Part shown: in pieces, positions 3,058 to 20,507 of the stretch
Numbering within the stretch: the stretch's first letter is position 1
Layout of the letters: the number at the start of each line of letters is the position of its first letter
Virus record (IMG/VR): IMGVR_UViG_3300020468_000096
Coordinates: 1-20,507 of that record
Strand: one strand, 5' to 3'
DNA: 20,507 bases
Source of the DNA: a virus
Made by a program: the position numbers and the translations under genes
The notes under the pieces: generated by a model
Seen by the model: the letters and a program-made list of their open reading frames with translations, nothing else
Told to the model about the DNA's origin: nothing
Databases searched by the model: none

Positions 3058-3078
3058 GTGTAGTAATTACTCCTTCGT

Positions 3079-3088
3079 ATTATTTATG
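3079..3088 (-). promoter_or_regulatory. T4-type late promoter motif before the 461-aa fibre gene
   Basis: CATAAATAAT, matching T4 TATAAATA at 7 of 8, ends 21 bases before the ATG. It overlaps the stop codon of the preceding gene (GCA TAA). A GAAGGAGT ribosome site lies between motif and start. Confidence 0.55.
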
Positions 3089-4193: not shown

Positions 4194-4196
4194 GTC

Positions 4197-5228: not shown

Positions 5229-5246
5229 TACTTAAGCGATTTAGTT

Positions 5247-5256
5247 CTATTTATTG
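5247..5256 (-). promoter_or_regulatory. T4-type late promoter motif before the fibre genes
   Basis: CAATAAATAG, an AATAAATA variant of T4 TATAAATA, ends 18 bases before the ATG of the 343-aa fibre gene. It overlaps the stop region of the oxygenase gene and would restart structural-gene transcription after it. Confidence 0.5.
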
Positions 5257-5880: not shown

Positions 5881-6014
5881 TTATTGATCGGGCAGTGGAA
5901 TATTGGAAAGCGTGCCTTCACTGCAAGTACACAGTTACATTTAGTACAGATCCCAATAGGTGATTTGTACTCACACTTATCACATATTGTAATCCGATTT
6001 TGATATAATGTCAA
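5874..6014 (-). CDS. Short Cys-rich probable zinc-binding protein
   Basis: An open frame ends in TAA (5874-5876), one base into the oxygenase ATG at 5874. With a TTG start at 6012-6014 it encodes 46 residues. Four cysteines form two CxxC knuckles (C11/C14 in CDKC and C23/C26 in CTKC), followed by C28 and a C-terminal FHCPINKW. This layout fits a small zinc ribbon. I recall phage small proteins ending in CPxxKW, but have not checked. The start is doubtful: there is no good ribosome site, the TTG coincides with a promoter -35 box, and longer non-ATG starts are possible. Function is unknown. Confidence 0.5.
   Translation of the reverse strand: MTLYQNRITICDKCEYKSPIGICTKCNCVLAVKARFPIFHCPINKW
5986..6014 (-). 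promoter_or_regulatory. Near-consensus sigma70-type promoter before the oxygenase
   Basis: TTGACA (6009-6014), a spacer of exactly 17 bases, then TACAAT (5986-5991), one mismatch from TATAAT. Transcription would begin near 5979, about 100 bases before the oxygenase start and inside the short Cys-rich frame. A 12-base palindrome lies 3 bases upstream of the -35 box. Confidence 0.6.
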
Positions 6015-6017
6015 GTC

Positions 6018-6029
6018 GGGGACGTCCCC
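6018..6029. promoter_or_regulatory. Perfect 12-base palindrome next to a promoter
   Basis: GGGGACGTCCCC is a perfect inverted repeat with no loop, three bases upstream of a TTGACA box, in otherwise AT-rich sequence. It could be an operator half-site pair or part of an RNA stem. Its role is not shown. Confidence 0.3.
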
Positions 6030-6040
6030 ATCCTCTACTA

Positions 6041-6310
6041 TTAACCTGCCCAAATTCCGTTGTTGTATACTTCTAATCTACTACTACCCGTATTAAATCT
6101 CAACTGCCCGTTTACATATCCTCTGTTAGGTGATTTATTAATCACTGCATCATTGAACTGTTGAGTTGTACCATATGGTAGGGGTAAAGAGTTTTGAGAA
6201 CCTGTGATTCTTAGTTCTGCTCCACCTTTAAATGCAAAGTCACTATCATGATCTAATGTGACAGTAAATCCTGGTGTTAATCCTTGTAAGTTCTGTGCTC
6301 GTACCTTCAT
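6041..6310 (-). CDS. Small fibre-module protein without a receptor domain
   Basis: An 89-aa protein that is almost entirely the shared fibre adapter. A short N-terminal segment (MKVRAQNLQGLTPGF) leads to the motif at residues 43-88: LPLPYGTTQQF, then GQLRFNTGSSRLEVYNNGIW. It stops three residues later (WAG), exactly where the larger fibre proteins go on into their distal domains. The QRP of the motif is replaced by QQF, and a ~10-residue insertion follows. Its ATG overlaps the upstream stop (ATGA), so it is translationally coupled. It may be a stand-alone cap or connector, or a fibre gene that lost its distal part. I see no evidence that decides. Confidence 0.75.
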   Translation of the reverse strand: MKVRAQNLQGLTPGFTVTLDHDSDFAFKGGAELRITGSQNSLPLPYGTTQQFNDAVINKSPNRGYVNGQLRFNTGSSRLEVYNNGIWAG

Positions 6311-6729
6311 CTAACACTCCATGATGCACCTGACTCCACTGTAACAGTGAAACCAGAATTAATTGTGATAGGACCTGCACTCATTCCGTTGGTAAACTCA
6401 GCACCATTGTTAGCACTTGGTCCAACTGTAAGGTTTTCTGCGATTACACTATTGTTTGTTCTAATAATACTATCAGTTCCTAAGGCAGGTCCACCACCTG
6501 CAACGGGTGACCATCCTGCAGACCCCGTTCCATCATCTGCTTTGTAAATCTCTGCAGAGTCAAGATCAGTATTAAATCTTAGTGTGCCAACTGATACACC
6601 AGTAGGTCTTTGTGCTTGAGTACCTGAAGGGATTCTTAAAACTGAGTTAGTATTTAAGAAACTTAAGGTTGTTACGATTGCTTGTGTACTGGTGGCAATT
6701 TGATTACCACTTACTCTTGAAATTGCCAT
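6307..6729 (-). CDS. Small fibre-module structural protein
   Basis: A 140-aa protein with the adapter motif at residues 31-74 (RIPSGTQAQRPTGVSVGTLR, FNTDLDSAEIY, GW). A ~65-residue tail follows with two short valine-rich strands (SVIAENLTVGP and TINSGFTVTVESGASW). These are typical of trimeric beta-rich phage fibre stems. It begins 4 bases after the stop of the 1322-aa protein without a clear ribosome site, so translation probably depends on coupling. It likely forms a connector in the same fibre or baseplate appendage as its neighbours; this is inferred from position and motif. Confidence 0.75.
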   Translation of the reverse strand: MAISRVSGNQIATSTQAIVTTLSFLNTNSVLRIPSGTQAQRPTGVSVGTLRFNTDLDSAEIYKADDGTGSAGWSPVAGGGPALGTDSIIRTNNSVIAENLTVGPSANNGAEFTNGMSAGPITINSGFTVTVESGASWSVR

Positions 6730-6733
6730 GTGA

Positions 6734-9700
6734 TTAGATAGGTAGTTCTAAGATGTGAACAGTGTCTGATGCAAGTGGAGCATCACCAGAGGAGAATACA
6801 ACGTTTGCTCCGTTAGAGTCGACTGTGTAGTTGGTTCCTGCAATCTGTGCTACACCATTAAGGAATACTAATAGTGAATCGTCAGAGTGCTTAATAGTTC
6901 CACTATATGTAGTTACAGCAAACGTTAAAGTAGTACCATCTCCTGTATATGATTTAGTAATATACTTGTCAGCACCAACACCACCTCGACCAGTAACAAC
7001 TAAGTCTCCATCAACTTTTGCGTTGCCCAACATGCCCACTCTGAATCCAGATACCGCAGCAGTACCAATACCAATATGTTGAGTGCTATTAAAAGTATCA
7101 ATATTGATCTCGCCAGTATCTGTAAGACCAAATTCTTTCCAAACACCACCATAGTAGATCCAACCTAAAGATTTACCAGGAGTCCAGTTGATATTATAAA
7201 CAAGGTCACCATCAGAAGGTGTATCGTAGTTGGTAATATTAGCAAAATTAGGTTGTCCATTTGCTAATGCAGGTGCTAGTAAGGTTTGCTTAATAACAGT
7301 ACCATCTTGGTTATAGTAAGAAATCTTTCTTGCTTGAACGTTATTCGTAAAGGTTGATAGACCTTGGAATGTAACAGGACCTGCAAAGATAGATTCTAAC
7401 TGGTTAGATGCACCACCAAGAACGGTTAGTTTATCGGTAAGAACCAACTCAGAGAATGTCTGAATAGTTGTGTTCTCTTCACCAACAACGTTCAACTGTG
7501 CAATATCTTCATTAGTGATCTGACCTGTAACAGGGTTGATAACTTGGTTACCAATGAATAGGTCACCGTTAGAGTTAAGTCCAGAGTAGAATGAAACTCC
7601 TCCTTCTTCTTTAATAGACTGAGAGAATCGGATCTGTTCTTGAGTTAGAGTCTCTACCTGTGTTTGAGGGAACGCTGTACTATAGTTTCCAGGTCCGAAA
7701 CCAAGGTACTCAAATGTGTGATTACCTGATCTGAGGATGGAGTGACGTCTGAACTCGATATTGATCGGTGCGACTGTTCCATCATTATTTTCTCGAATCT
7801 TAATTTTTCGTGTCTCTTCATCGCCAGCCCGTGCAGTAAGTTGCACATTTGAGAGTTTTGCGTTGTTTGAGTCATAGTTTGGCGTAGTACCAGGTTGAGT
7901 CCAACCTGTATCAGTTAGAAGGAACTGAATACCTTCCTTAGTAATAGATCTCTTGGGATCTTTTGCAGGAGTTGGTGTTGCACCATCAGTAGCATTGACG
8001 AGACCGATAATAACATTGTCAGCAACAGAAACTGCAGGAAGAGGATCAGCAACTGGGTTATCTCTATCGAATGTAGGATAAACTTCGTTGACGTTCTGTG
8101 AGAACTTTCTATTGTCAAAGTTAGATGTGCTTGGTGCAATAGAACCGCACAATAATGTTAGATAATAGATACCATCATTGACACCTCTTTCAAATGGTTG
8201 TACGATTTCAATATCATAGATGTAGAAACATTTAGTTAAGTTGAATGTTGTAGTGTCACTATTCAAAGGTTGCATTACGAAACCAGAGATAGGATCTCTA
8301 GGTAGAGGATTAGACTTGTCCTTATCAATGACCATTCTTACACGATAAGTTCTATCTTGTAAGTCACGAGGGTCAGGGATTCTCTTAAGGAATGTACTCG
8401 GAGTAAAGTTTACGTTATTATATTGCGTATTTGTAGATAAAGTTTGATAGATTTCAGAGTTTGCTGTAACACTTAGATACCAACCACCAACTGAACCTGC
8501 TACACCATTAATTGTATATGTTGCACTATCATACTGGATCGGTGATCCTGCTACACCTGCTGCTAGTCCAGATACACTAGGACCATAAGGTGAAATACTT
8601 GCTCCTTGTGTTGTTGCAGTCGTTGCACCGTTTGCAACTAAGAGACAGTTGATTTTGTCTGCAATAGCACTCGCACCTGTGCCATCTTGACGTGCACCAA
8701 CGGTGAAACCCTGCACTCTAGTTGTAGGAGGTGACGCTTCAGTCGTATATCCGTAGAGATAGAGTCTAGTTCCAGGGGTACCGCCTTGACCTGCGAGCGA
8801 TGCGTTAACGACCTTAGTCCTTTGAATATCAATGTTAACCCAGTTAACAGAAGTTTCTTCGCCAAAGATTATATTACCTGCTACGATGTTTCCAGTGAGA
8901 GTGTTACTAAGTGTAATAGCACCAGTGTTTGTATTGACCGTTCCAACAGTTGTACTATCGGGAATGTTAGTTCCTGTTACAGTCATACCTTGAATGATAC
9001 CCAGAGCATCACCAACTTTTGCAGAAGTTAAAGTGATAGTATTAGTACCATTAGAACCATTTGCAAGAGTAGAGATGACGTTGAGTGCTTTAGGTGGAAT
9101 GATATGTGTGATTGCACCTGCTTTATCTTTCGAGAATGACTTTGCTTTGAATCCTGCTGCTCTTAACGCTGTGTTACCAAAGTTAGAGTTAGAGTTCGTA
9201 ATTGACATGTCAGCACCACTCTCAGCAGTGAAGTGACCAAAGTATCCCACAGCGAACACAGAAACTGCCTGAATGAATGAGTCATTAGAACACTTGATGT
9301 GCTCATGTCCCCATCCTTTTCTATACTCAGCAAATCCGTCTAGGTGTGCACCATCACCAGATGTTGCAGCATCATAGTTTCCAGTTGATTGATTATATCT
9401 AACAAATGCTCTATCATCTTTTTGGAGTGACAATCCAGTAAACTGTGCCACAACCATTGATTTGAAACCAGTTGCTTTTGCACCGTTTGCGTGCATACCA
9501 TTCATACCCCACACACTTCTTAGTGATAGGTTGAATGCGTATGGTGATGCTGAGTCAACAGTATCAATCTCAGTCTTAACAGTAATATTAGAACCTACAG
9601 CGTTTCCTGTTGGTTCTCCTTGCATTTGGTATGTGAAGACGTTACCAGATGCGGATGTGACTGTGAAACTTCCGTTATAAAGTCCTGCATCAACTTCGGA

Positions 9701-10702
9701 TTGCGGTCCAGTTGATCCTGTAACACCACTAACGTTGATGTTAACACCAACAGAAAATCCGTGGTCCCTGGGATTATCAAACTCGTCAACAGTGACAGCC
9801 GTTGCTGTCTGTCCATTTCTTGTGACCTGTAAGACTCTGTATTCATCTGAAATCGGTCCAACGATTCTATTTTCTTCGACCCTTGGTTGAATCTGGTCAG
9901 CAGCAGGATCGCCAGAGGTATCAGGAATCGTTGCGAATGCTTTCGATACCTTCTGATAATAAATCTCTAGGTCAGTTCTTTCAAGAATGTTAGGAACAGC
10001 AGAATAGTCTGTGTTCGGAACTGTACCATCAGTAATAAGTTTGGAGAGGGGGTTAAGACCATCAGCAAACTCAAAACAAGTTAATCTATGGTGTGAGAAC
10101 TTAGGTGCAAGTGTCTCTACGCTATCAGGTTTGAAGTATACACCTTCTTCAGCACCGTCAAAGAAAGAGAATTGCCAGAAATAAGTACCACCAGTAACTT
10201 TGAAGATTGCTGTCCTTGGAGGGACTTGATCTTCTGTGTTAATGCCTTTTGCAGCATAAGTTGTAGGGTATGGAACATATTTTGGAATGATCTTTGTACG
10301 ACGGAGGTCAGTACCAACGAGGGAACAACCTCTAGGTACGATGATACCACCTTCAACAGAGTTATACTTATATAATACGTTGTTTGGTGAGGTTAAGTCT
10401 AGGTTAGAGTTTGCATCAATAGGTGCAACGTTTGTATATAATACGTCTCCAGGTCTATTATCTACTTGATACTCAGCAGGATAGAGCATGATACTGAAAG
10501 CATCAAACTCGTCATTACTTAAACCAACTCTATATGAAAATCTTGCTACTTCTAGGAATGCCCTTTGGATCGATTTAAATGGACGCAAAGCAGAGTTACC
10601 TCTGTTATCGATAGCATCAGATGCATCGAAATCGTCAGGGTTGACATAGATAATACGTCCAGTTCTGGACGTAATAATATTCTTTAGTCTAGTTAGGGAC
10701 AT
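6734..10702 (-). CDS. Large virion structural protein, beta-helix/fibre type
   Basis: At 1322 aa, the largest protein in the window. Residues 18-85 carry VNPDDFDASDAIDNRGNSA, then RPFKSIQRAFLEVARFSYR, then FSIMLYPAEYQVDNRPGD. Together with GIIVPRGCSLVGTDLRRTKI (119-138) they are in the style of pectate-lyase-like right-handed beta-helices, where PFKTIQxA and a Tyr-Pro/Gly-x-Y strand recur. The middle is Gly/Thr/Asn-rich. The end holds a fibre-type domain (KSYTGDGTTLTFAV, then SLLVFLNGVAQIAGTNYTV and SGDAPLASDTVHI) that I recognise from other phage fibres. No signal peptide or catalytic set is evident. A late-promoter motif lies 19 bases upstream and AGGAA forms the ribosome site. A role in a baseplate appendage or fibre is likely. 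The matching T4 gene, if any, is unclear. Confidence 0.8.
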   Translation of the reverse strand: MSLTRLKNIITSRTGRIIYVNPDDFDASDAIDNRGNSALRPFKSIQRAFLEVARFSYRVGLSNDEFDAFSIMLYPAEYQVDNRPGDVLYTNVAPIDANSNLDLTSPNNVLYKYNSVEGGIIVPRGCSLVGTDLRRTKIIPKYVPYPTTYAAKGINTEDQVPPRTAIFKVTGGTYFWQFSFFDGAEEGVYFKPDSVETLAPKFSHHRLTCFEFADGLNPLSKLITDGTVPNTDYSAVPNILERTDLEIYYQKVSKAFATIPDTSGDPAADQIQPRVEENRIVGPISDEYRVLQVTRNGQTATAVTVDEFDNPRDHGFSVGVNINVSGVTGSTGPQSEVDAGLYNGSFTVTSASGNVFTYQMQGEPTGNAVGSNITVKTEIDTVDSASPYAFNLSLRSVWGMNGMHANGAKATGFKSMVVAQFTGLSLQKDDRAFVRYNQSTGNYDAATSGDGAHLDGFAEYRKGWGHEHIKCSNDSFIQAVSVFAVGYFGHFTAESGADMSITNSNSNFGNTALRAAGFKAKSFSKDKAGAITHIIPPKALNVISTLANGSNGTNTITLTSAKVGDALGIIQGMTVTGTNIPDSTTVGTVNTNTGAITLSNTLTGNIVAGNIIFGEETSVNWVNIDIQRTKVVNASLAGQGGTPGTRLYLYGYTTEASPPTTRVQGFTVGARQDGTGASAIADKINCLLVANGATTATTQGASISPYGPSVSGLAAGVAGSPIQYDSATYTINGVAGSVGGWYLSVTANSEIYQTLSTNTQYNNVNFTPSTFLKRIPDPRDLQDRTYRVRMVIDKDKSNPLPRDPISGFVMQPLNSDTTTFNLTKCFYIYDIEIVQPFERGVNDGIYYLTLLCGSIAPSTSNFDNRKFSQNVNEVYPTFDRDNPVADPLPAVSVADNVIIGLVNATDGATPTPAKDPKRSITKEGIQFLLTDTGWTQPGTTPNYDSNNAKLSNVQLTARAGDEETRKIKIRENNDGTVAPINIEFRRHSILRSGNHTFEYLGFGPGNYSTAFPQTQVETLTQEQIRFSQSIKEEGGVSFYSGLNSNGDLFIGNQVINPVTGQITNEDIAQLNVVGEENTTIQTFSELVLTDKLTVLGGASNQLESIFAGPVTFQGLSTFTNNVQARKISYYNQDGTVIKQTLLAPALANGQPNFANITNYDTPSDGDLVYNINWTPGKSLGWIYYGGVWKEFGLTDTGEINIDTFNSTQHIGIGTAAVSGFRVGMLGNAKVDGDLVVTGRGGVGADKYITKSYTGDGTTLTFAVTTYSGTIKHSDDSLLVFLNGVAQIAGTNYTVDSNGANVVFSSGDAPLASDTVHILELPI

Positions 10703-10720
10703 TTCCTATTACTGCTTTTG

Positions 10721-10730
10721 ATTATTTATT
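10721..10730 (-). promoter_or_regulatory. T4-type late promoter motif before the 1322-aa gene
   Basis: AATAAATAAT lies 18 bases before the ATG, matching T4 TATAAATA at 7 of 8. It falls just upstream of the TAATAGGAA that serves as ribosome site. Confidence 0.5.
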
Positions 10731-10735
10731 GGGGT

Positions 10736-12223
10736 TTAACTTCCACCGCCAGAACCAGAAGTTCCTGCAGTTTGAGCATAAGCACGAGTAGTGAATCCAG
10801 TAGAACTGTCTTCAAAACCAACTAATGTAAACGAACAATCTGCGTCATTGTTCTCAACGACCAGTCTTTGCCCTGGTCCAATAATAAGAGACTTGATCTC
10901 TTCTGTATTATTCGCAGTGATAGCATTATCCTTACGAAGGTAATGCTTAGTCTCTAATGTTGCACCCGAAGAAGTAACAGAAGAAACTGTTACAGTAGAA
11001 CGAGCACCAGTTGTTAAGACAGGATTATCTAAGAAAGTATCCGAACCAGAGATGTTTGCAGAACCTTCTCCAAGAACAACATATAGAGCAGTTCCTGTGT
11101 ATTCACGAACAAATCCGTAAGGACCTGCAGTCTGACTAGTAACAGTATAAGTTACACCGTTGTATGTAAAGGTATCTGTGTTGTCTACCCAGGTCCCAGA
11201 AACATTGTATACGAAAATAGAGTCATAAGAATATGAACCCGACGTAGTGAGCAACCTGTCGGTTCCTCCATAGTTTGCGTTAGCAGCAGTTCCAGTTGTT
11301 CCTTCATAGTAAAATAGGTTAGATGGTAAACTTGTGTTTGCAGTTAGATCGTACTGAACATAAGCACCACTAGAACCTGCAGTTCCGTTAGTGGTCTTAC
11401 CTGTAGTATACTCAGTACCATCATCGGAGTTACCTGCAGTTCCGTCAGGACCCCACTCACCGTTTGCAGTCTCAGAGATTTTGAATACCAAACTACTCAT
11501 ACTTGAGTCTGCTACGTTAAAGCGATATGTTCTATCACCTAATACTGTTAAAGCAGTTCCAAGATAAAGATTTTCAGTTCCACCAGACGTTGTAAAGGTA
11601 AACTCGTTTGCAGCAGTACCAACACCACCAGATGAGATAGTACCAGTTGCACCACCAGATGCAGTAATAGAATCACCTGCAACAAATTCAGATCCAGAAC
11701 CATTCAAGGTAGAAGGACCGATATAAAGAGTTGAACCACCAGAACCAGATGCTACAGCAAAGATAGTTGCAACAGATGTGTTACTACCTGCCCCCTTTGA
11801 AATAGTATTACCAATGGCAAATGTACCAGTCACAGATTCAACTGCAATCGATCTAACTGCCCTACTCTTTACTGTAATTTCAGTAAATGGTGGAATATAA
11901 AATGATTCAAATACTGCTGTTTTTTCATTATCAGCAGAAGATAATGCTTGATTGACGTTAAGACCTTGGTCAGCACCAACTGCTGTACCTAAGTTAAATC
12001 TATAACCAGTGAATACGTCACCAGTGTGTAGTTTGTAAGTTGAAGCATCTAAGACGACATGTTGATCGTAGTCTTTGATACCGACATCGAATGAGGTGTT
12101 TGATCCACCTTGTGCACTCACAGACAAAACCGTACTTGCAGACGCATCGATAGGTGCTTTATAGAGCACCGTGTTGGTAGTCGCACCTGGTTTTGCTGAG
12201 GCAAGTAGTCCTTGTTTAGCCAT
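10736..12223 (-). CDS. Virion structural protein, Thr/Ser/Gly-rich beta protein
   Basis: A 495-aa protein with an N-terminal domain (MAKQGLLASAKPGATTNTVL, then YKAPIDASASTVLSV) that looks folded and conserved. A long Gly/Thr/Ser/Ala-rich middle of low lysine content follows, typical of fibre shafts. A C-terminal segment is rich in LIIGPGQRLVVENNDADCSF, a jelly-roll-like strand pair often seen in phage tail proteins. The sequence ends in SGSGGGS. It starts 6 bases after the stop of the 441-aa gene with no strong ribosome site, so it is probably translated by coupling. I infer a tail or baseplate appendage role and cannot name a T4 counterpart. Confidence 0.75.
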   Translation of the reverse strand: MAKQGLLASAKPGATTNTVLYKAPIDASASTVLSVSAQGGSNTSFDVGIKDYDQHVVLDASTYKLHTGDVFTGYRFNLGTAVGADQGLNVNQALSSADNEKTAVFESFYIPPFTEITVKSRAVRSIAVESVTGTFAIGNTISKGAGSNTSVATIFAVASGSGGSTLYIGPSTLNGSGSEFVAGDSITASGGATGTISSGGVGTAANEFTFTTSGGTENLYLGTALTVLGDRTYRFNVADSSMSSLVFKISETANGEWGPDGTAGNSDDGTEYTTGKTTNGTAGSSGAYVQYDLTANTSLPSNLFYYEGTTGTAANANYGGTDRLLTTSGSYSYDSIFVYNVSGTWVDNTDTFTYNGVTYTVTSQTAGPYGFVREYTGTALYVVLGEGSANISGSDTFLDNPVLTTGARSTVTVSSVTSSGATLETKHYLRKDNAITANNTEEIKSLIIGPGQRLVVENNDADCSFTLVGFEDSSTGFTTRAYAQTAGTSGSGGGS

Positions 12224-12229
12224 TTTTAA

Positions 12230-13555: not shown

Positions 13556-13580
13556 GAATAATCACACTATTTGATACAGT

Positions 13581-13590
13581 TTTATTTATA
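13581..13590 (-). promoter_or_regulatory. T4-type late promoter, exact TATAAATA
   Basis: TATAAATAAA contains the exact T4 late consensus TATAAATA. It lies 25 bases before the GTG start of the 441-aa gene and just after the stop of the 220-aa gene. It is the best such match in the window. Confidence 0.7.
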
Positions 13591-13597
13591 AAGGTTA

Positions 13598-14260
13598 TTA
13601 AAGGTCTGATTCTTTAACTTCCTCTTCAGTTCGATATGCCCACTCTTCAGTATGTCCAACAGACCACCATTTAGGTAGAGTTTCCACCGCATAGTTCTGT
13701 GTACAAACTTTAAAGTCAGGTCTCTTAAGATTATTATTATCCACCAAACTGTTATCGAAGAACTGACATCGATTGTTTGGTTGTGCTGCAAACTGTCCGT
13801 TATCTAGAGCAATAATATTAAATGTTTTATGCTCTGGATCATGCTCTGAGAAGTTAGTATCTAATACAGAGAAGTCGGGGTGTGCAGTATCAATCGTAAA
13901 TTCATATTCACCTGGGTGCATCTTCTTGTCTTTACCAAAGAAAGAACACCTACCTAAAATAGGTTTTTCAACTACAGTGATATTATAATCAAAGCAGTCC
14001 CATAGTTCTAATACATCTAATGGTAACTGATCATCTGGATTGATGTCTGGTTTCCATACAAATGCACTGAGTGGTAACTTATCAAATAAAGCACCATAAT
14101 CAGTAAGTAATGTCTCGAAGTATAATGCTTTTGCTTGTATACTTCTTACTGAGATCCATAGACCTGGGGTGAGTTCCCCATGTCCTTTTTCAAGATCATA
14201 AAGATATTCTTTCTTCACCCAGACCTTTCTAGGTGGTAGAGGATGAACTAGGTATGCCAT
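13598..14260 (-). CDS. Conserved-looking protein of unknown function
   Basis: A 220-aa soluble protein starting MAYLVHPLPPRKVWVKKEYL. It is rich in aromatic and acidic residues and has no signal peptide or membrane segment. Notable segments are GELTPGLWISVRSIQAKALY, WDCFDYNITVVEK, and a C-terminus with ETLPKWWSVGHTEEWAYRTE. I recognise no catalytic motif. Its ATG shares one base with the stop of the upstream gene (TAATG), so the two are coupled and probably function together. The pair lies behind a late-promoter-like motif and directly before large virion genes, suggesting a late, perhaps minor virion or assembly role. I do not recognise the family with confidence. Confidence 0.75.
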   Translation of the reverse strand: MAYLVHPLPPRKVWVKKEYLYDLEKGHGELTPGLWISVRSIQAKALYFETLLTDYGALFDKLPLSAFVWKPDINPDDQLPLDVLELWDCFDYNITVVEKPILGRCSFFGKDKKMHPGEYEFTIDTAHPDFSVLDTNFSEHDPEHKTFNIIALDNGQFAAQPNNRCQFFDNSLVDNNNLKRPDFKVCTQNYAVETLPKWWSVGHTEEWAYRTEEEVKESDL

Positions 14261-14607
14261 TAAGAATAATAAGATTTAGTCACAATTCCCTCTTCAAATG
14301 TTACCATGCACCGAGGGGTAGGTGCATAATGAACTCCCCATTTTGCAGGGTACAGTTCAAGTTGTTTAGTTATACAGAAAGGTGAAACTTTTCCATGATT
14401 CTGACTTTTTGCAACTTTAATGCATTCAGCATCTTCAAGTTCATAAGTTCCTGAATAATCAACACTCCAGAGATGACCCTTCGGATCGATATAATATTGA
14501 CTCAGGAATCCGTCAAGATCCTGAGTTCTCAATTCTCGATTCCAGAATCCTGGACCGAGATCAAATTGAGAGTATATTATATCATAGATTCCCATAAAGT
14601 TTAGCAT
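14260..14607 (-). CDS. Conserved-looking protein of unknown function, coupled to the 220-aa gene
   Basis: A 115-aa protein: MLNFMGIYDIIYSQFDLGPG, then YYIDPKGHLWSVDYSGTYEL, ending TFEEGIVTKSYYS. The beta-rich, Tyr/Trp-rich pattern suggests a small globular domain. Two ATGs are possible (14607 and 14595). A CTAAATAATT motif ends only 3 bases before the first. If that motif is the promoter, the message would be nearly leaderless, which would favour the second ATG or an upstream start of transcription. No function is apparent. Confidence 0.7.
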   Translation of the reverse strand: MLNFMGIYDIIYSQFDLGPGFWNRELRTQDLDGFLSQYYIDPKGHLWSVDYSGTYELEDAECIKVAKSQNHGKVSPFCITKQLELYPAKWGVHYAPTPRCMVTFEEGIVTKSYYS

Positions 14608-14610
14608 TTT

Positions 14611-14620
14611 AATTATTTAG
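14611..14620 (-). promoter_or_regulatory. T4-late-like motif directly after the tRNA
   Basis: CTAAATAATT begins at the base immediately after the tRNA 3' end and lies 3 bases before the 115-aa gene's first ATG. It is one mismatch from T4 TATAAATA over the core. The spacing to the start codon is unusually short. Confidence 0.4.
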
Positions 14621-14704
14621 TAGGAGTAGGGAGACTTGAACTCCCACGAGCACATGCTCAACAGATTTTAAGTCTGGTGCGTCTACCTATTCCGCCACAC
14701 TCCC
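14621..14704 (-). tRNA. trnL-UAA: tRNA-Leu, anticodon UAA
   Basis: An 84-base cloverleaf can be drawn. The acceptor GGGAGTG pairs with TACTCCT (two G-U pairs), with discriminator A. The D arm begins GCGGAATAGG. The anticodon stem CAGA/TCTG holds the loop CTTAAAA, so the anticodon is TAA. A long variable arm (GAGCATGTGCTC) marks a class II tRNA. The T arm is GGGAG-TTCAAGT-CTCCC. CCA is not encoded; the next bases are CTA. It reads UUA and UUG leucine codons, useful for an AT-rich phage. Its 5' 22 bases overlap the end of a small ORF. Confidence 0.95.
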
Positions 14705-14814
14705 AATTTATTTTTTAATGCTTTCAACCGTTCCTTGGCAGCACGAAGTGCTTGAGGTTTAAGATGCCTCTTTTGCTCCTTCTTTGAATGGTGCTGCCAG
14801 TTTGGTAGTTTCAT
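14683..14814 (-). CDS. Very basic 43-aa protein overlapping the tRNA
   Basis: The ATG at 14812-14814 overlaps the stop of the 225-aa gene (ATGA). The frame gives MKLPNWQHHSKKEQKRHLKP and then QALRAAKERLKALKNKLG. It ends at TAG (14683-14685), inside the 5' part of the tRNA gene. Nine Lys and five Arg against two Glu make it strongly basic, and the second half should be an amphipathic helix. Nucleic-acid binding is a guess from charge alone. The last six codons are shared with the tRNA, so RNase P cleavage would cut its message before the stop. Confidence 0.65.
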   Translation of the reverse strand: MKLPNWQHHSKKEQKRHLKPQALRAAKERLKALKNKLGVWRNR

Positions 14815-15488
14815 TCAATCATATACCCCTGTTCGACTAGATACTTTTTGGTTAAGGGGGTAGGTTTATATACATTCCACATCGCACCAGTTGAACATGC
14901 AGCAAGTGCATTAGCAGTCATGCCTTGAGTTCTACCTGCCCAAGTTGCTTCTTTCTCCCAAGGAATTGCCCCTGGTTGAAATGCATAGGTCCTGCGTGCC
15001 ATCTCTTGCCACATCTGAGGAACACTTTCTTCTGGTAGGATAATAGCAATCAAACTATTATCAATCGTGCCTGCCATACAATCCTGTGCAGCGTGCCATC
15101 CTTCATGACGCATCACACTCATCAAAACATGAGGACGACTCATGAAAGTTTTGTTTAAAAAGAAATTATTACTCACAGTATGATAGACACCTCGATGTCC
15201 TACTGGAAAATACTTCTCATCAGCAAGATATACATTCACTCCCACTTGGTTCAATGACACAAGCATATTGTTAAACTCTTGTGCCACTGAAGTAAATGAT
15301 TCAGGGTTGTCATAATTTGAGGAGATATCCAACAAAGTATGCACTTCCTTCACATCATCCCTACATTCACCAAGTAGCATACATCCCATGGAATGGTTAC
15401 TATAGTAGTCCTCCTTTCCAATAGGGTCTGCCATAACTGGTGCTGTTGCAAGACATGTTGTCATCAATGCTGCAATAATTTTTTTCAT
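14811..15488 (-). CDS. Secreted putative zinc metalloprotease (HExxH)
   Basis: A 225-aa protein. Residues 1-20 form a Sec signal peptide (MKKIIAALMTTCLATAPVMA), with likely cleavage after A20. The zinc motif is H128-E-G-W-H132 in MRHEGWHAAQDC. A third ligand may be E178 or E180 in PWEKEATWAGR, 46-48 residues downstream, as in gluzincins. Four cysteines in the mature part (36, 42, 137, 198) could pair in the periplasm. It would act on protein or peptide outside the host cytoplasm, for example during lysis or superinfection blocking, but no substrate is indicated. It is coupled to its neighbours by ATGA overlaps at both ends. Confidence 0.7.
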   Translation of the reverse strand: MKKIIAALMTTCLATAPVMADPIGKEDYYSNHSMGCMLLGECRDDVKEVHTLLDISSNYDNPESFTSVAQEFNNMLVSLNQVGVNVYLADEKYFPVGHRGVYHTVSNNFFLNKTFMSRPHVLMSVMRHEGWHAAQDCMAGTIDNSLIAIILPEESVPQMWQEMARRTYAFQPGAIPWEKEATWAGRTQGMTANALAACSTGAMWNVYKPTPLTKKYLVEQGYMIE

Positions 15489-15649
15489 TGGAAGGGTTCA
15501 AAAACTTCAGTTGGTGGGTGAAATGCACAATATTCGTTAAAGGTGATTTTCATCTCCTTATTGGTCAGTTTGCAATGCTTTGCTGCTGTTGGTAAGTTCC
15601 AAGTAGCAGTAAATAAATTCTCCATTGCTTCTCTAGTCTCAGGTCTCAT
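15485..15649 (-). CDS. Small conserved-looking protein, 54 aa
   Basis: Starting at the ATG at 15649 this encodes MRPETREAMENLFTATWNLP, then AAKHCKLTNKEMKITFNEYC, ending in VFEPFQ. A GTG at 15685 would extend it but has no ribosome site and would overlap the preceding gene by 47 bases, so I reject that start. LPTAAKHCKLTNKEMK resembles a helix-turn-helix-like segment (a short helix, a turn, then TNKEM), but this is weak. The stop overlaps the next ATG (ATGA). Function is unknown. Confidence 0.65.
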   Translation of the reverse strand: MRPETREAMENLFTATWNLPTAAKHCKLTNKEMKITFNEYCAFHPPTEVFEPFQ

Positions 15650-15788
15650 CTCGTTTTTGGTGGTATACAAGTACAAATGCGTCACAACGAGGGCAAGATA
15701 GATTAGTTTCTATCTCATATTCAGAATCTTCTGAATCGTGATCTCCGCCCCATATTAAGTTTGGAAATCCACAGGACCAACAGTTCAT
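15639..15788 (-). CDS. 49-aa probable zinc-ribbon protein
   Basis: The ATG at 15786-15788 begins MNCWSCGFPNLIWGGDHDSE and ends in QKRDET with TGA at 15639-15641. Two CxxC knuckles (C3/C6 and C32/C35 in CPRC) flank an acidic stretch (DHDSEDSEYEIE), the layout of a small zinc ribbon. AGGAA immediately precedes the ATG and the upstream micro-ORF stop overlaps it (ATGA). It overlaps the next gene by 11 bases. It may bind a host protein or nucleic acid, but nothing in the sequence says which. Confidence 0.75.
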   Translation of the reverse strand: MNCWSCGFPNLIWGGDHDSEDSEYEIETNLSCPRCDAFVLVYHQKRDET

Positions 15789-15865
15789 TTCCTATTCTCT
15801 CGCCAGTAAATTAGGAAAAGTCCGAGCGTAACCCAGAATACAACTTCAAGTCCGTAATTAGTCAC
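15785..15865 (-). CDS. 26-aa single-span membrane micro-protein
   Basis: A GTG start (15863-15865) encodes a peptide with VVFWVTLGLFLIYW as one hydrophobic span, followed by the basic tail RENRK. That arrangement predicts a short inner-membrane peptide with its C-terminus in the cytoplasm. GGAGGAG lies 10 bases upstream. The frame overlaps the previous stop at its start and the next ATG at its end (ATGA), exactly as for the other genes of the cassette. This tight fit is the main evidence that it is real. Confidence 0.6.
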   Translation of the reverse strand: MTNYGLEVVFWVTLGLFLIYWRENRK

Positions 15866-16082
15866 TTTTAACTGTCTCCTCCATAAATGATTTTTTAAAC
15901 TCTTCTACCTGATTCTGAATTTCTTCAGGAACTGGTGGAACCTCGTTGACTGGAACCATCATAGCGGATTTCCCGTCAGGACGAGTAATTTTCCAACATA
16001 CCCGTTGGGTTTCGGTTAGATCCATAATAAAATCAAAATGATCCTCTGCTTGGCGCAGGGTGATTCCAATAGGTCCAATCAT
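15858..16082 (-). CDS. Small protein of unknown function, 74 aa
   Basis: MIGPIGITLRQAEDHFDFIM leads into RVCWKITRPDGKSAMMVPVN, then a Pro/Glu-rich helical tail (VPPVPEEIQNQVEEFKKSFM). The front half looks like a small beta-sheet domain and the tail like an amphipathic helix. There is no membrane segment or metal site. The ATG overlaps the upstream stop (ATGA). It belongs to the sigma70-driven small-gene cassette. Function is unknown. Confidence 0.72.
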   Translation of the reverse strand: MIGPIGITLRQAEDHFDFIMDLTETQRVCWKITRPDGKSAMMVPVNEVPPVPEEIQNQVEEFKKSFMEETVKSD

Positions 16083-16282
16083 GCTTCTACTTCAGCAAAA
16101 CAATAAGTGATGAGATCGTGATCGACCGTATCTTGAATAGCACTGACGACTTCAGCGAAACCTTCAGCACCTTCCTTGTTCCACATCCAATCGATAACTC
16201 GATCGAATCCCTCGTTGTCCAAGAGTTTTACAGACCGCTTGGAAAAGTTGATAAAGACGTGTTCTAGGTAAGTGTCGTTCAT
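16079..16282 (-). CDS. Small acidic protein of unknown function, first gene of the cassette
   Basis: The ATG at 16280-16282 (MNDTYLEHVFINFSKRSVKL, 67 aa) is preceded by AGGAG at 5 bases. A longer frame from TTG at 16330 exists, but that codon is part of a promoter -35 box, so I chose the ATG. The protein is acidic and helical (DRVIDWMWNKEGAEGFAEVV) and ends AEVEA. It is the first gene behind the sigma70-type promoter and so is probably made early. I do not recognise a family. Confidence 0.75.
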   Translation of the reverse strand: MNDTYLEHVFINFSKRSVKLLDNEGFDRVIDWMWNKEGAEGFAEVVSAIQDTVDHDLITYCFAEVEA

Positions 16283-16301
16283 AAATCTCCTGTACCTATG
16301 T

Positions 16302-16330
16302 AGTATAGCAGACTGCCCTGCCCCTGTCAA
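16302..16330 (-). promoter_or_regulatory. Near-consensus sigma70-type promoter for the small-gene cassette
   Basis: TTGACA (16325-16330), exactly 17 bases, then TATACT (16302-16307), one mismatch from TATAAT. Transcription would start near 16295, giving a ~13-base leader that carries the AGGAG ribosome site of the 67-aa gene. The promoter occupies the gap right after the gp5 stop, so it is not explained by coding constraint. Confidence 0.82.
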
Positions 16331-16331
16331 G

Positions 16332-18866
16332 TCAGTTTAAGAAAATAGTCTTGGCAGTCAGTTTCATGACAGCACCTGATGTCAGTGCCATAGCACCCTT
16401 GGTAGCAGTGATGGTTACAGCACCTGCAACAGCAGTCATATTGATAATACCTTTAACTACGTTCACATTATGGGCACCCTCTAGAACTTGCTGATTATAT
16501 CCTGTCAGACCACAAGTCACAGACACAGGACCAATAGGATTCAATAGTTTGTTGAATGGAAAAGGAATTGTCTTAGAAGGATTTTGTACAGTTGTAATAT
16601 TACCATGACAGGTAGTATAAATTCCTGGTGCAGGAACTAAAGATGTTGCTTCAGTATTAATCAGTTGATTCAGTACAGGAGTTAGGCAATTAATAACACT
16701 ATTTCCTGATAACACTAACTCATTTCCTGCCATCTTTTGAAGCTTATATGAGTTCTCAAAAGTAGATCCAGTAAACTTAGTATTTGGTGCACCAAGAGAA
16801 AATTCTGATGCTTGTATCACCATCGCAGCACCTGCACTCTTAATATCTACGTCAGATCCGAACGTGATAGCATGTTTCTGAATCTTACTGCTCTTCTTCT
16901 TACCATTTTTATCAACAGTCTTAGGTGCACCAGATGCGTTCAGGAAGAAACCTCCACCAACTTCTACATGCATATCACCAGTAATTTTTAATCTATAATC
17001 ACCCTCTACGTTTAGAACACCATCACCATCTACAGTACAACAATCGTCACCCATAACATCTACGGTGTGATTTCCTGCGTAACTGGAGTGATCAGCAACT
17101 AAATTACCAGTATCATCTTTACTACCACCTCTGTTAGTCTTCTTATATTCTTCTGTCTTTTTCTTAACTTCTTCATCTGAAATATCAGGATTTTTTTCTC
17201 TTAATGCTTTTAGATAAGTCCACTCTGCAAAAGTGTTGTTATTGATATTGTAAGATGAGTGAGTCGTTCCACTAGGTTCTTTGACAACGTGTGCCTGACG
17301 ACCTGGGGTTCCTACATGGTGATCGAATGAACCATCTACAAATGTTTTTGCTACAGAAAGATAAGGATCTGCTTTTGTAAAGATTTGATCAAGAACACCA
17401 GTTGGAGAACTATCACCTTCACAACTTCCTCTATTACTACCCCTCAGTTTATTAATATTTGCTAGTTCTTCATCACTACAGTTGGTAACACCGAATAGTG
17501 GGAAATATCCATGACTATCAGTACCACCATCAGGTTTTCTATCACAACCACCACCAAGAAACTTAACAAACAGAGCAAGTAAACCTGCAAGACCACTAAG
17601 TCCATTTTGGAACATGTCAGATCCACCATCAAAGATGCCAGATCCTTTTTCCCAACTGCTGATGATATCCTCAACACCTGCAACTGCACTAGTTGCTGAT
17701 TTTACTGTGTTGATAACACCCTTAAGTTGACTGAGAACGTTCTGTACAGAACAAACAATACTATCAATAGTATCTTGAACACCCTGCATTACCATTTGTG
17801 CTTTACTGATAGCACCACTAAGCAAACTGTTAATACCACTTTGAATAGCACTCACAGGATCATTAATGAAACTGGTGATCTGACTATCAAAAATACAGAG
17901 AGATGATAAAATCTGAGTCACTGCAGTCTGAATAAGTGCCATTTGTGCAAATGGAATTCCTGGAATCAGACTACCAAAGTCTAACAAACCACCAAGTTGT
18001 TCAGCAAGTTGTGATGTTGCCTCTCTAATTGCAGAGATAATTTGGGAGAAAACAGAACCTAGAAAGTTTTGTAGTTTTGCTGTAAGTTTTTCAATAGTTA
18101 CAACTTTACCAGATACAATATCAATGAAAGAACCGTCTTCAGTTGCAACCAGTGTACCTGCTGTATCTGCAATATCTTCAATAAGATAGTTTAACTTAGA
18201 TTCCACAGATTTCCAAGGTCCGCCTACACCATTACCAGTAGCAATTGGTTTAGAAGGTGATCTTGGTTTTTGAGCATTACCTGCACTTCCTGGGAGGTGT
18301 ACACCTACATTATTGGGTGATCCTGGACCTGCAGGTTCTGGTGATACCTTACTTCCAGGCATTTTTACAGAATTACCCCCAGAAGCATTAATTTTATTAT
18401 TAATATCAATACTATTAGGATCGGCAGTTCTTCTAAGTGCAGGGTTGACTGCACCTGTACTTCCATCCTCCATGTTTTCACCTGTGAGGGTGAAGTCATG
18501 CTTTGTACTTGTACTCTTCTGTACACGCAAAACACCAATAACTATTGGCATTTGAGCATCTTCACCATCCATGAAGAAACCCATAACAACAGCACCTGGC
18601 TGTAGTTGTCCCGAACTTTCACCTTGTCCGTCGTTACCTGCCTGAGAAGTATGTTGTAATACTGTTGCCCATGGTAAGTTATCTGTAGGTAGATCAGCAA
18701 CTGTGCCACCTCTTACGTTAGTGTAATATCCAAGCACACGAACTTTACACCGACCAAGTTCCATCGGATCTTCGTTGTCTTCGACTTCACCAACCCACCA
18801 GAAAAATCCGTCTTTACCGACAAAGTTTACTGTAGGTTCATTTAGGATACCTTCAACTGTTTGCAT
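16332..18866 (-). CDS. gp5: Baseplate central spike, gp5-like, without lysozyme domain
   Basis: An 844-aa protein. Residues ~15-115 form the OB-fold typical of gp5/VgrG spikes (FFWWVGEVEDNEDPMELGRC, KVRVLGYYT, LPWATVLQHT, QPGAVVMGFFMDGEDAQMPI, VIGVL). A Pro/Gly/Ser linker follows (~125-215), then a long helical, partly hydrophobic region (~240-440). The C-terminal third has beta-prism repeats (HTVDVMGDDCCTVDGDGVLN, YRLKITGDMHVEVGGGFFLN), matching the gp5 needle. I see no T4-lysozyme-like Glu/Asp/Thr catalytic region, although the protein is longer than T4 gp5 (575 aa). It sits at the centre of the baseplate with gp27 and pierces the outer membrane. The late motif CTAAATAATC lies 16 bases upstream. 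Confidence 0.88.
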   Translation of the reverse strand: MQTVEGILNEPTVNFVGKDGFFWWVGEVEDNEDPMELGRCKVRVLGYYTNVRGGTVADLPTDNLPWATVLQHTSQAGNDGQGESSGQLQPGAVVMGFFMDGEDAQMPIVIGVLRVQKSTSTKHDFTLTGENMEDGSTGAVNPALRRTADPNSIDINNKINASGGNSVKMPGSKVSPEPAGPGSPNNVGVHLPGSAGNAQKPRSPSKPIATGNGVGGPWKSVESKLNYLIEDIADTAGTLVATEDGSFIDIVSGKVVTIEKLTAKLQNFLGSVFSQIISAIREATSQLAEQLGGLLDFGSLIPGIPFAQMALIQTAVTQILSSLCIFDSQITSFINDPVSAIQSGINSLLSGAISKAQMVMQGVQDTIDSIVCSVQNVLSQLKGVINTVKSATSAVAGVEDIISSWEKGSGIFDGGSDMFQNGLSGLAGLLALFVKFLGGGCDRKPDGGTDSHGYFPLFGVTNCSDEELANINKLRGSNRGSCEGDSSPTGVLDQIFTKADPYLSVAKTFVDGSFDHHVGTPGRQAHVVKEPSGTTHSSYNINNNTFAEWTYLKALREKNPDISDEEVKKKTEEYKKTNRGGSKDDTGNLVADHSSYAGNHTVDVMGDDCCTVDGDGVLNVEGDYRLKITGDMHVEVGGGFFLNASGAPKTVDKNGKKKSSKIQKHAITFGSDVDIKSAGAAMVIQASEFSLGAPNTKFTGSTFENSYKLQKMAGNELVLSGNSVINCLTPVLNQLINTEATSLVPAPGIYTTCHGNITTVQNPSKTIPFPFNKLLNPIGPVSVTCGLTGYNQQVLEGAHNVNVVKGIINMTAVAGAVTITATKGAMALTSGAVMKLTAKTIFLN

Positions 18867-18882
18867 CTATCTGCAGATTTTT

Positions 18883-18892
18883 GATTATTTAG
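18883..18892 (-). promoter_or_regulatory. T4-type late promoter motif before gp5
   Basis: CTAAATAATC, one mismatch from TATAAATA in its core, lies 16 bases before the gp5 ATG and just after the likely cpeT terminator. Confidence 0.55.
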
Positions 18893-18910
18893 TAAAAAAC
18901 CCTAAGAGTC

Positions 18911-18943
18911 AAAAAATGGCGGGATTTTTTTACCCCGATTTTT
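18911..18943 (-). terminator. Likely intrinsic terminator after cpeT
   Basis: On the minus strand, AAAAAT-CGGG, a 10-base loop, CCCG, a two-base bulge and ATTTTT form a stem that ends in a T-run. It starts a few bases after the cpeT stop (18948) and is nearly symmetrical, so it might work both ways. The GC core is only 4 pairs, so strength is uncertain. Confidence 0.5.
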
Positions 18944-18947
18944 GAAA

Positions 18948-19397
18948 CTAAAAGGCGTTTTTGGTTTTAACAAACTTATATGTTTCTTTGCTACCCCAGA
19001 TCATACGTCCATCGACATAACCTTGGTCACAACTATGTAGTTTGTCTCCGAAGAGTGACATCTTTGATTTGATCTCAACTCCTTTGACGACACAATTGCC
19101 CACAACAGAACCGTGCCATGCGTTACCATCGAAGGTAAACATCATACCACACTCTTCAGATTTAGTCCAGTCTATATCGTAGTTCTCAATTAATATTTGG
19201 GTGTCAGATATTATAACTTTCTTATGAAATCTTTTTCGATATGGGTTAGAGGGTCCGTCTTTTCTGTAGTAATTTTGAGACTGCAAACCCCCTTCTATTT
19301 CTTGCCAGTGCATAAAGATTGATGCGTAGGCATGGGGATTTGCTTGTGCTTGTGCTATGTTATTCCAAAGTCCTAAGAGATAAGACTCAATCGTCAT
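18948..19397 (-). CDS. cpeT: CpeT/CpcT-like phycobilin lyase
   Basis: A 149-aa protein, shorter than the ~200 aa of cyanobacterial CpeT/CpcT but of the size I recall for phage versions. Residues ~18-56 contain QANPHAYASIFMHWQEIEGG, then SQNYYRKDGPSNPYRKRFHK. The ANP...YA and PYR.R signatures belong to this lyase family, which attaches or chaperones bilins for phycobiliproteins. Later features are NYDIDW and a C-terminal GRMIWGSKETYKF. It would act in the host cytoplasm to tune light harvesting during infection; the exact activity of phage CpeT is not established by sequence. The ATG overlaps the cp12 stop by 11 bases, so the two are coupled. Confidence 0.88.
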   Translation of the reverse strand: MTIESYLLGLWNNIAQAQANPHAYASIFMHWQEIEGGLQSQNYYRKDGPSNPYRKRFHKKVIISDTQILIENYDIDWTKSEECGMMFTFDGNAWHGSVVGNCVVKGVEIKSKMSLFGDKLHSCDQGYVDGRMIWGSKETYKFVKTKNAF

Positions 19398-19614
19398 AGA
19401 CTAGACATTCTGGTTCTGAAGGGTTCTGATCACAGTAAAGTTCAAGAGCAGTAGGGTCATGATGATCTCCTGCTTCAATATCTTTTTTGTGATGCTGAAC
19501 GTACTCTTCTAACTCATGAAGTTCGCCTTCAATGTGTCTACGAGTCTGAGGACTTGTTTGAGGATTGTCTAAGATTTTTTTATCTTTTTGAATGTGGTCT
19601 TCTAATGTTTTCAT
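19387..19614 (-). CDS. cp12: CP12-like Calvin-cycle regulator
   Basis: A 75-aa protein. The N-terminus (MKTLEDHIQKD) and C-terminus (ALELYCDQNPSEPECLVYDD) match cyanobacterial CP12. C61 and C70 are eight residues apart with the family's NP between them, and the last residues YDD correspond to the GAPDH-docking tail. CP12 clamps GAPDH and phosphoribulokinase into an inactive complex, shutting the Calvin cycle. A phage copy would divert reductant and carbon to nucleotide synthesis. The N-terminal cysteine pair, which docks phosphoribulokinase in many CP12s, is absent, and the AWDxVEEL core is replaced by GELHELEEY. It is co-translated with cpeT. Confidence 0.85.
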   Translation of the reverse strand: MKTLEDHIQKDKKILDNPQTSPQTRRHIEGELHELEEYVQHHKKDIEAGDHHDPTALELYCDQNPSEPECLVYDD

Positions 19615-19637
19615 GTAAGTACCTGATTGATACAGAA

Positions 19638-19645
19638 CTATTTAG
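19638..19645 (-). promoter_or_regulatory. T4-late-like motif before cp12
   Basis: CTAAATAG overlaps the stop codon of the gp27-like gene (CCC TAA) and lies 23 bases before the cp12 ATG. It could give late expression of cp12-cpeT, in addition to the sigma70-type candidate inside gp27. Confidence 0.4.
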
Positions 19646-20507
19646 GGGATTACGCCATCTTTCATTAGTAACATCTCTGATGAAAAGTTATCAGGAGTAC
19701 CTTTATGGGAGACCGTAACGATCATATAACGACCGCTAAATCGTTTATCCATCTTGGTTTTGTCTCCAGATTTTTCGGTAGATGGTAACGTAATGTGAAT
19801 TCCGTAACCTCCATATAGATCCAAGTTTCCTGGGACGACTACTTGCACTCTCGTGTTTTTCATCGTTTCCATTCGCATCCATTGATATGCTTGCAACTCT
19901 ACGAGTGCTTCATAGTTTTTCTGCGAACTGAGTGCCGAACCAGGGGATGTTTTCTTATCGAAAATTTGGTTCGGAAGTATACTATAACGCACCCTTTTAG
20001 GGTTGTCAACGAGATTTTTAAAGGCGTCATCAAGTCGTGACATAGGGTTTACTGAGTTCTTACCACCCAAGTGTGACATGCTCTTCCATGCATCAGAAAC
20101 TTTATACCTGTACATGTCTGCTGATAGTTCTGAACTCTCTCCACCCCACCTAGATTGATTAACTGTGACAGGATCAAATCCAACGCTGTAACCTGACCAA
20201 GCACCGTGTCTCAGACCCATCAAAAAGTTCTTTTCTTCTGGAAAACTAACACTATCAATCTTAAATTGATCTCCTTCACCAGTATCAATTTTCTTAGCAG
20301 AATAGACATACTTATACAGTCTTGCTATACCTGTAGATGGATTAGTTTTAGTTTCTACATCCTGTTTGTTAATATCCTCAATCATACCATCGATAGATTT
20401 GAAATGGTATCCCATTGCATTCTCAAAGAAAGTAAACCCGTTCTGGAATCCACCACCCGTTTTTTTCTTTCTGATTGATCTCTGTGCAATCCAATAGATC
20501 GCATCCA
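19642..20507 (-). CDS. gp27: Baseplate hub subunit, gp27-like, C-terminal part
   Basis: The frame is open to the right edge, giving about 288 residues. The ATG at 20415 is internal, because the coding sense continues upstream with AIYWIAQRSIRKKKTGGGFQ and NGFTFFENAMGYHFKSIDG. The FQNGFTFFEN...GYHF-KSI segment and the adjacent gp5 spike identify a gp27-like hub, the trimeric ring that carries gp5 and joins the tail tube to the baseplate. The visible part includes FLMGLRHGAWSGYSVGFDPV and a C-terminal beta domain (DLYGGYGIHITLP, RFSGRYMIVTVSH). T4 gp27 is 391 aa, so roughly the first quarter is missing here. The T4 equivalence is well supported by order, less so by sequence. Confidence 0.82.
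   Translation of the reverse strand, partial: DAIYWIAQRSIRKKKTGGGFQNGFTFFENAMGYHFKSIDGMIEDINKQDVETKTNPSTGIARLYKYVYSAKKIDTGEGDQFKIDSVSFPEEKNFLMGLRHGAWSGYSVGFDPVTVNQSRWGGESSELSADMYRYKVSDAWKSMSHLGGKNSVNPMSRLDDAFKNLVDNPKRVRYSILPNQIFDKKTSPGSALSSQKNYEALVELQAYQWMRMETMKNTRVQVVVPGNLDLYGGYGIHITLPSTEKSGDKTKMDKRFSGRYMIVTVSHKGTPDNFSSEMLLMKDGVIP
19981..20009 (-). promoter_or_regulatory. Sigma70-like promoter candidate inside gp27, upstream of cp12-cpeT
   Basis: TTGACA (20004-20009), exactly 17 bases, then TATAGT (19981-19986), one mismatch from TATAAT. It lies in gp27 coding sequence (VDNPKRVRYSIL), about 370 bases before cp12. The spacer also holds ACCC-TAAAA-GGGT, a short inverted repeat. It is a candidate for early expression of cp12 and cpeT. 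Confidence 0.45.

Follow-up and report, generated by a model that had tools for sequence, protein, structure and literature searches.

Early genes of cyanophages are thought to be transcribed by the unmodified host RNA polymerase, and NATAAATA is given as the late motif of phage S-PM2, of the T4 gp55 type, in an account of that phage (PMC2984593). According to the same account, S-PM2 genes that are middle genes in T4 carry promoters of both kinds, and quantitative polymerase chain reaction showed no middle profile for the few that were tested (PMC2984593). Other studies report both promoter kinds for psbA of S-PM2d (PMC5931967) and a middle expression cluster that includes the metabolic genes of P-HM2, cp12 among them (PMC5082946), and Sullivan et al. 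(2010; PMC3037559) name a hot spot for genes “near gp5 with tRNAs”. Here we describe a candidate host-type promoter, termed S2, that lies next to gp5 in the 20,507-base virus record IMGVR_UViG_3300020468_000096 (hereafter the window, meaning the record at its full length), a fragment of a T4-like cyanomyovirus with its genes on the minus strand.

For phage Syn9, Doron et al. reportedly described, in 2016, host-like promoters for middle genes and a novel element for early genes; these elements are said to be conserved among T4-like cyanophages, and S2 may already be mapped there in Syn9. Promoters of this class, the late box and a tRNA-bearing hot spot at gp5 are already known. The conserved arrangement of promoter plus slot was not found in a search of open-access papers that did not include the Syn9 transcriptome. 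Our analysis suggests that S2 is likely a working host promoter of a resident gene of the DUF7294 family, that it opens a changeable island of small genes and transfer RNAs (tRNAs), and that a late box then restarts the virion genes.

Results

The gene order of the window is a tail gene, cp12, cpeT, gp5, the island of small genes and tRNA-Leu, fibre-like structural genes, a Cys-rich open reading frame (ORF) with a 2-oxoglutarate (2OG) oxygenase gene, and then further fibre-like and hypothetical genes. The window is matched by 327 phage records, the closest named ones being Synechococcus phage metaG-MbCM1 (MbCM1; 96%) and cyanophage P-RSM1 (87.7%). We compared 22 mutually related phages, the window counted among them; 18 were hand-picked for diversity from 60 of 274 matching records. 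Sites were scored as matches out of 12 to TTGACA plus TATAAT with a spacer of 16–18 bases, and four sites, all on the minus strand as are the features below, were named S1 (20009–19981), S2 (16330–16302), S3 (6014–5986) and S4 (1177–1149).

S2 occupies the 49-base-pair (bp) gap between the stop codon of the baseplate gene gp5 (16332–18866) and the ATG of the DUF7294 gene (gp21-like; PF23966, phrog_662; 16079–16282), and ends 19 nucleotides (nt) before that ATG. It consists of TTGACA at 16330–16325, a 17-base spacer and an extended -10 element, TGC TATACT (hexamer at 16307–16302), for a score of 11/12. Across the 22 phages, the best sigma70 site before this gene scores 12/12 in two (Syn9 and S-H35), 11/12 in 12 and 10/12 in four. 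TGC stands ahead of the -10 in 18 of the 22, and the -10 itself is mostly TATACT or TATAAT and at times TATAGT, TATGAT or TAGAAT. The distance from the end of the -10 to the ATG is mostly 18–25 nt; the exceptions are S-TIM4 (68 nt), ACG-2014g (0 nt; its annotated DUF7294 start is 21 nt upstream of the conserved start), and S-SSM4 and P-RSM6, which have no good site.

A further set was taken from IMG/VR by locating loci through the DUF7294 protein rather than through the promoter. The 80 loci nearest to the window's protein, among 337, yielded 79 usable and 58 distinct loci in 39 clusters; L274, with 27 nt of upstream sequence, was left out, and L288 has no ATG at the expected place. At the S2 position, 34 of the 39 clusters score at least 11/12, three score 10 and two score 9, while shuffles reach 11/12 in 0.26% of cases; the spacer is 17 bases in 37 clusters, and TGn precedes the -10 in 32. 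In P-HM2, a Eurybiavirus, gp5 and the DUF7294 gene are separated by an extra gene, and the latter is preceded by TTTACA-17-TATACT with TGC (10/12). Since P-HM2 keeps the site before the DUF7294 gene and away from gp5, S2 appears to go with the DUF7294 gene. With its hexamers at a 16–18-base spacing and its conservation at the orthologous place beyond chance, S2 is very probably a true promoter of the host sigma70 type.

The genes on either side of the island show the opposite pattern. Sites of at least 11/12 occur within 120 nt upstream of the DUF7294 gene in 14 of the 22 phages, of cp12 in four, and of gp5 and the fibre-like gene in none; TAAATA occurs within 60 nt upstream of the DUF7294 gene in one, of cp12 in 22, of gp5 in 21 (not Syn9) and of the fibre-like gene in 22, in 21 of these last at -36 to -15. 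S2-type sites and late boxes are nearly mutually exclusive at the DUF7294, gp5 and fibre-like starts. An initial annotation of the window had noted a late motif that restarts structural genes after each accessory cassette, and this motif is present at all three places: CTAAATA at 18892–18886 before gp5, TATAAATA at 13590–13583 before the fibre-like structural gene 12230–13555, where it forms the fixed 3' end of the island, and ATAAATA at 5254–5248 before gene 4197–5228. The conservation given above bears out the first two restarts. Absent from that scheme were the late boxes before cp12 (CTAAATA, 19645–19639) and before the gene that follows the tRNA (CTAAATA, 14620–14614). The window holds 13 NTAAATA motifs in the sense direction and three in antisense; seven of the 13 stand 13–34 nt ahead of the start of a gene (cp12, gp5, GC_755, the fibre-like gene, which begins at 13555, and three others that begin at 10702, 5228 and 3057) and the other six lie within genes. 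Boxes with one mismatch to TATAAATA are not in overall excess in the window.

Between these fixed ends the content of the island varies. Its length from gp5 to the fibre-like gene is 793–6982 bp among the 22 phages, with zero to five tRNAs. The DUF7294 gene is in the island in all 22, and the gp22-like second gene (phrog_375, listed as a Phd-like antitoxin; 15858–16082) in 19; content beyond these two differs among phages. The phrog_591 (T4-GC_945) gene, at 14811–15488 in the window, sits in either of two accessory slots depending on the phage: the island in seven, including the window, the cp12–gp5 stretch in seven, and neither in eight. The initial annotation had concluded that accessory genes entered the late cluster as units bringing host-polymerase promoters with them. 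At S2 the fixed ends and variable middle reverse this picture: S2 remains attached to the resident DUF7294 gene, whatever cargo follows, and genes would enter a slot in which a promoter is already present.

Several observations weigh against so simple an account. The counts from the 22 phages and from IMG/VR are not independent, given the kinship of the phages, the hand choice of 18, the selection of the nearest 80 loci and the partial overlap of the two sets. S2 scores low in four phages: 9/12 in two (Syn30 and ACG-2014d), 8/12 in one (S-SSM4) and 7/12 in one (P-RSM6). Extra sites of at least 11/12 lie inside the island in seven of the 22 (Syn9, Syn30, S-RIM8, S-H35, ACG-2014b, S-MbCM25 and P-RSM1); in those phages S2 may serve only part of the island, and some of the cargo may have promoters of its own. 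The CTAAATA box at 14620–14614 lies inside the small-gene/tRNA cassette, before the GC_755 gene, so the last two genes of the island may be late as well.

We also asked how far sites of this kind exceed chance. TTGACA occurs 17 times in the window, eight times on the minus strand (1141, 1172, 5728, 6009, 8113, 12829, 16325 and 20004) and nine times on the plus strand, and the hexamer alone is not enriched (shuffle mean 21.8). Our recount reproduces the initial figures: four of the eight minus-strand hexamers are followed at exactly 17 bases by a box one mismatch from TATAAT (TATAGT, TATACT, TACAAT and TAAAAT), and none of the nine on the plus strand is. Near-consensus sites, with at most one mismatch in 12, thus number four on the minus and none on the plus strand, compared with dinucleotide-shuffle means of 0.48 and 0.40 (P = 0.001 for at least four on the minus strand; P = 0.009 for at least four in total). 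Codon-preserving shuffles, in which equal scores would have told against the initial scheme, gave a mean of 1.39 against the four observed (P = 0.0013); S2, being intergenic, was kept unshuffled. This excess is real, though modest, and disappears when the threshold is relaxed: a looser scan of positions 1–20000, which leaves out S1, found 54 sites against 55.0 expected, and a scan of the window allowing two mismatches found 12 against 13.8.

Near-consensus sites track gene orientation in all ten whole related genomes, with 12–20 in sense and 1–2 in antisense, compared with 0–4 per strand for a reversed-pattern control; the site class is real genome-wide in these phages. In Syn9, nine of 16 sense sites stand 18–44 nt before an annotated start, for example those of DNA polymerase, primase and a high-light-inducible gene, and a sigma70-type site lies 106 nt upstream of psbA. 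In MbCM1 (11 vs 2.4) and Syn9 (8 vs 3.1), sense sites inside genes also outnumber those in codon shuffles, which makes internal promoters plausible in general; these counts are approximate, as a TTG start chosen by the ORF caller made S2 intragenic in MbCM1 and the window, the 59-amino-acid (aa) Cys-rich ORF was missed, and the 11 sites of MbCM1 take in S1, S2 and S4.

These figures bear on the idea that all four sites are chance occurrences or coding by-products. Such an origin would suit S1, discussed below, and the lack of excess at looser thresholds. For S4, a promoter-like sequence within ORF 905–1672, the results point both ways: with 11/12 in its near relatives and a score of 10/12 for S-RIM2, it stands above codon-sampled expectation (P 0.005–0.010 each, for only three distinct cores), and it was rejected as a specially constrained site, since 64 of 246 windows of that gene are equally conserved. 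The conservation of S2 in an intergenic gap, the genome-wide strand bias of the class and the intragenic sense excess all argue the other way, and we consider it very improbable that the four sites share this origin.

S1 stands differently from S2. It lies within the tail gene 19642–20415, and its end is 366 nt from cp12 (PF02672; 19387–19614), which is followed by cpeT (PF06206; 18948–19397). The S1 hexamers encode part of a conserved peptide, (V/I)DxPKRVRY(S/T). Over 21 phages, P-RSM6 being left out of the codon comparison for its insertion, the S1 score averages 7.81/12, where the peptide and the codon usage of the window together predict 7.25. A score of 11/12 is seen only in the window and, of the 20 other phages, in MbCM1 and S-MbCM25 (P about 0.03 for each alone); P-RSM1 and S-RIM8 reach 10/12. 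We rejected S1 as a maintained cp12 promoter, since its conservation does not go beyond that of the encoded peptide and a late box stands directly upstream of cp12, 31 nt before it in the window and 22–35 nt before it in all 22 phages. S1 is probably a coding by-product rather than a promoter. No strong sigma70 site was found near the window's cp12, the best within 160 nt scoring 8/12. Strong sites (at least 11/12) do lie 66–98 nt before cp12 in four of the 22 phages (S-TIM4, S-CAM8, S-IOM18 and P-RSM3), indicating that cp12 can gain sigma70 promoters. A terminator-like hairpin at 18920–18937, between cpeT and gp5, is one of 23 such matches (shuffles 10.5). In P-HM2, cp12 is absent from the stretch around gp5, and its published timing is not tied to the cp12–gp5 slot; cpeT of P-HM2 (11863–12267) stands after gp5 and not before it, another gene found in the other slot.

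The scheme of the initial annotation, in which the accessory cassettes joined the late cluster as separate units, each bringing a host-type promoter (S1, S2 or S3), can be judged against these results. It draws on the excess of four gene-sense near-consensus sites over chance, on the strong sites before cp12 in four phages, none of them the window, and on the internal sites of seven islands, by which some accessory genes may carry promoters. It had set all three sites before accessory cassettes and supposed one host-type promoter for each. The results support this for the small-gene/tRNA cassette, before which S2 is conserved and after which the next structural gene has a late box in every phage; they do not support it for cp12-cpeT, whose candidate lies in a tail gene and is not maintained. 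Nor does S3 stand before the Cys-rich ORF, where it had been placed: it is inside that ORF, the first gene of its cassette. Followed through relatives, as the initial annotation had proposed, S2 is kept in most members of both sets, S1 is not kept, and S3 is kept at 11/12 in close relatives and falls to 9/12 in diverged rows. Together with the scores of S1, no better overall than the peptide predicts, the invariant late box before cp12 and the attachment of S2 to its resident gene whatever the cargo, this makes separate entry with own promoters an unlikely explanation.

S3 is a promoter-like sequence in the Cys-rich ORF (PF19668 DUF6171, phrog_13558; 59 aa; 5874–6053), 105 nt before the 2OG-Fe(II) oxygenase gene (PF13640; 5251–5880). 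Transcription beginning 5–9 nt past the -10 would miss the first cysteine codon of the ORF, so S3 could serve the oxygenase only. An internal promoter for the oxygenase alone would accord with the intragenic excess seen in two genomes and with the site itself: TTGACA-17-TA(C/G/A)AAT scores 11/12 in 23 of 26 distinct upstream sequences, and the mean over 13 distinct cores is about three matches above a codon-sampled expectation (10.69 vs 7.74; P about 0.01 each in close relatives). However, the 23 are all close relatives, three diverged rows (S-RIM2, L187 and L189) fall to 9/12, and the stretch encodes a conserved peptide. Moreover, the comparison covers 36 of 64 loci plus four further sequences, the rest, with the most diverged ones among them, being truncated or not matching from the gene start. 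We regard such a promoter as a possibility, and a rather doubtful one. A perfect 12-base palindrome, GGGGACGTCCCC, lies at 6018–6029, three bases before the -35 of S3, and is absent from several relatives.

The remaining island genes of the window were also surveyed. After the gp22-like gene come a small gene (T4-GC_160 in the MbCM1 annotation; 15485–15649), the phrog_591 gene, tRNA-Leu (TAA; 14620–14704), the GC_755 gene (phrog_1615; 14260–14607) and, last, the GC_171 gene (phrog_3704, listed as ferredoxin or PurM; 13598–14260). The phrog_591 product has an apparent signal peptide and, by eye, an HEGWH motif, and showed no match in Pfam; it is possibly an exported metalloprotease. Since the PHROG profile begins at residue 5, the GC_755 gene probably starts at 14595, 12 nt downstream of the position given above. 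By eye, a small Cys-rich ORF of about 49 aa is present in the island at 15639–15788, and P-RSM1 has an ORF annotated “protease” near that place. MbCM1 8251–8880 (oxygenase) and 16598–17260 (GC_171) are each annotated in two pieces and are intact in the window, which suggests frameshifts in the MbCM1 record. Before the fibre-like gene, ten of the 22 phages (L003, L128–L133, L135, L137 and L141) have an ORF of 43–61 aa ending in ..RYNEL(Y/F)P..YK, with its stop codon inside the late box TATAAATAA; it is mostly unannotated in its records, and a related ending is seen in two more phages (L138 and L139). At this place the reading frame of the window is a different one, of 36 aa.

Discussion

The results are consistent with a model in which host RNA polymerase uses S2, with its extended -10, to read the small-gene/tRNA island, even though that island is embedded among the late virion genes. 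Transcription of the island would presumably run alongside that of replication and metabolic genes, early or middle; from the published timing of cyanophage promoter classes, early-to-middle activity would be expected of S2. The gp55-type TATAAATA box at the far end of the island would then restart virion transcription late; gp55 and gp45 are annotated in Syn9. The fixed parts of the system would be S2, the DUF7294 gene and the late box, with the cargo between them gained, lost and swapped, some of it with sites of its own. The activity of S2, its start point, its timing and the reach of its transcript over the whole island are predictions from the sequences, positions, conservation and cargo differences observed here.

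A broader version of this model, which we put forward tentatively, treats the gp5 junction as a fixed expression slot: a gene recombined into it would take on pre-late timing without bringing a promoter, and the cp12-cpeT slot would impose late timing, with some lineages adding a sigma70 site to it. The internal sites of at least 11/12 in seven of the 22 islands weaken the slot in its pure form. If the slot model is true, the phrog_591 gene, found in either slot, is a natural swap between two timing classes, and its distribution makes the effect of slot position on timing directly testable. A fixed promoter before a changing block of genes would, if true, explain how new genes gain pre-late timing within a late operon; the timing of acquired genes in cyanophages matters in turn for the way in which infection redirects photosynthesis and the flow of carbon.

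Comparison with described systems places most parts of this arrangement in familiar classes. The TAAATA boxes about 22–35 nt before cp12, gp5 and the fibre-like gene (21/22) resemble T4 gp55-type late promoters; unlike the S-PM2 gp55-type motif, the box here is often CTAAATA and not ATAAATA, and it also stands directly before a metabolic gene, cp12, in all 22 phages. The early-plus-late double promoters described for middle genes of RB49 and S-PM2 (PMC2984593) have a counterpart in S-TIM4, S-CAM8, S-IOM18 and P-RSM3, in which cp12 has a sigma70 site plus a late box; in contrast, the window's cp12 has a nearby late box only, with S1 366 nt off and not maintained. The island matches the gp5 hot spot in place and in kind of content, tRNAs and small genes (PMC3037559), although the relevant extracts of that account do not describe its bracketing by a conserved promoter and a late box. 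S2 itself, with TTGACA/TATAAT-type hexamers before a non-structural gene, is like the host-like sigma70 promoters of other T4-like cyanophages (S-PM2, Syn9 and psbA of S-PM2d). Unlike many of the Syn9 sites, which precede replication or metabolic genes, it lies among the virion genes, at the head of an island of variable content.

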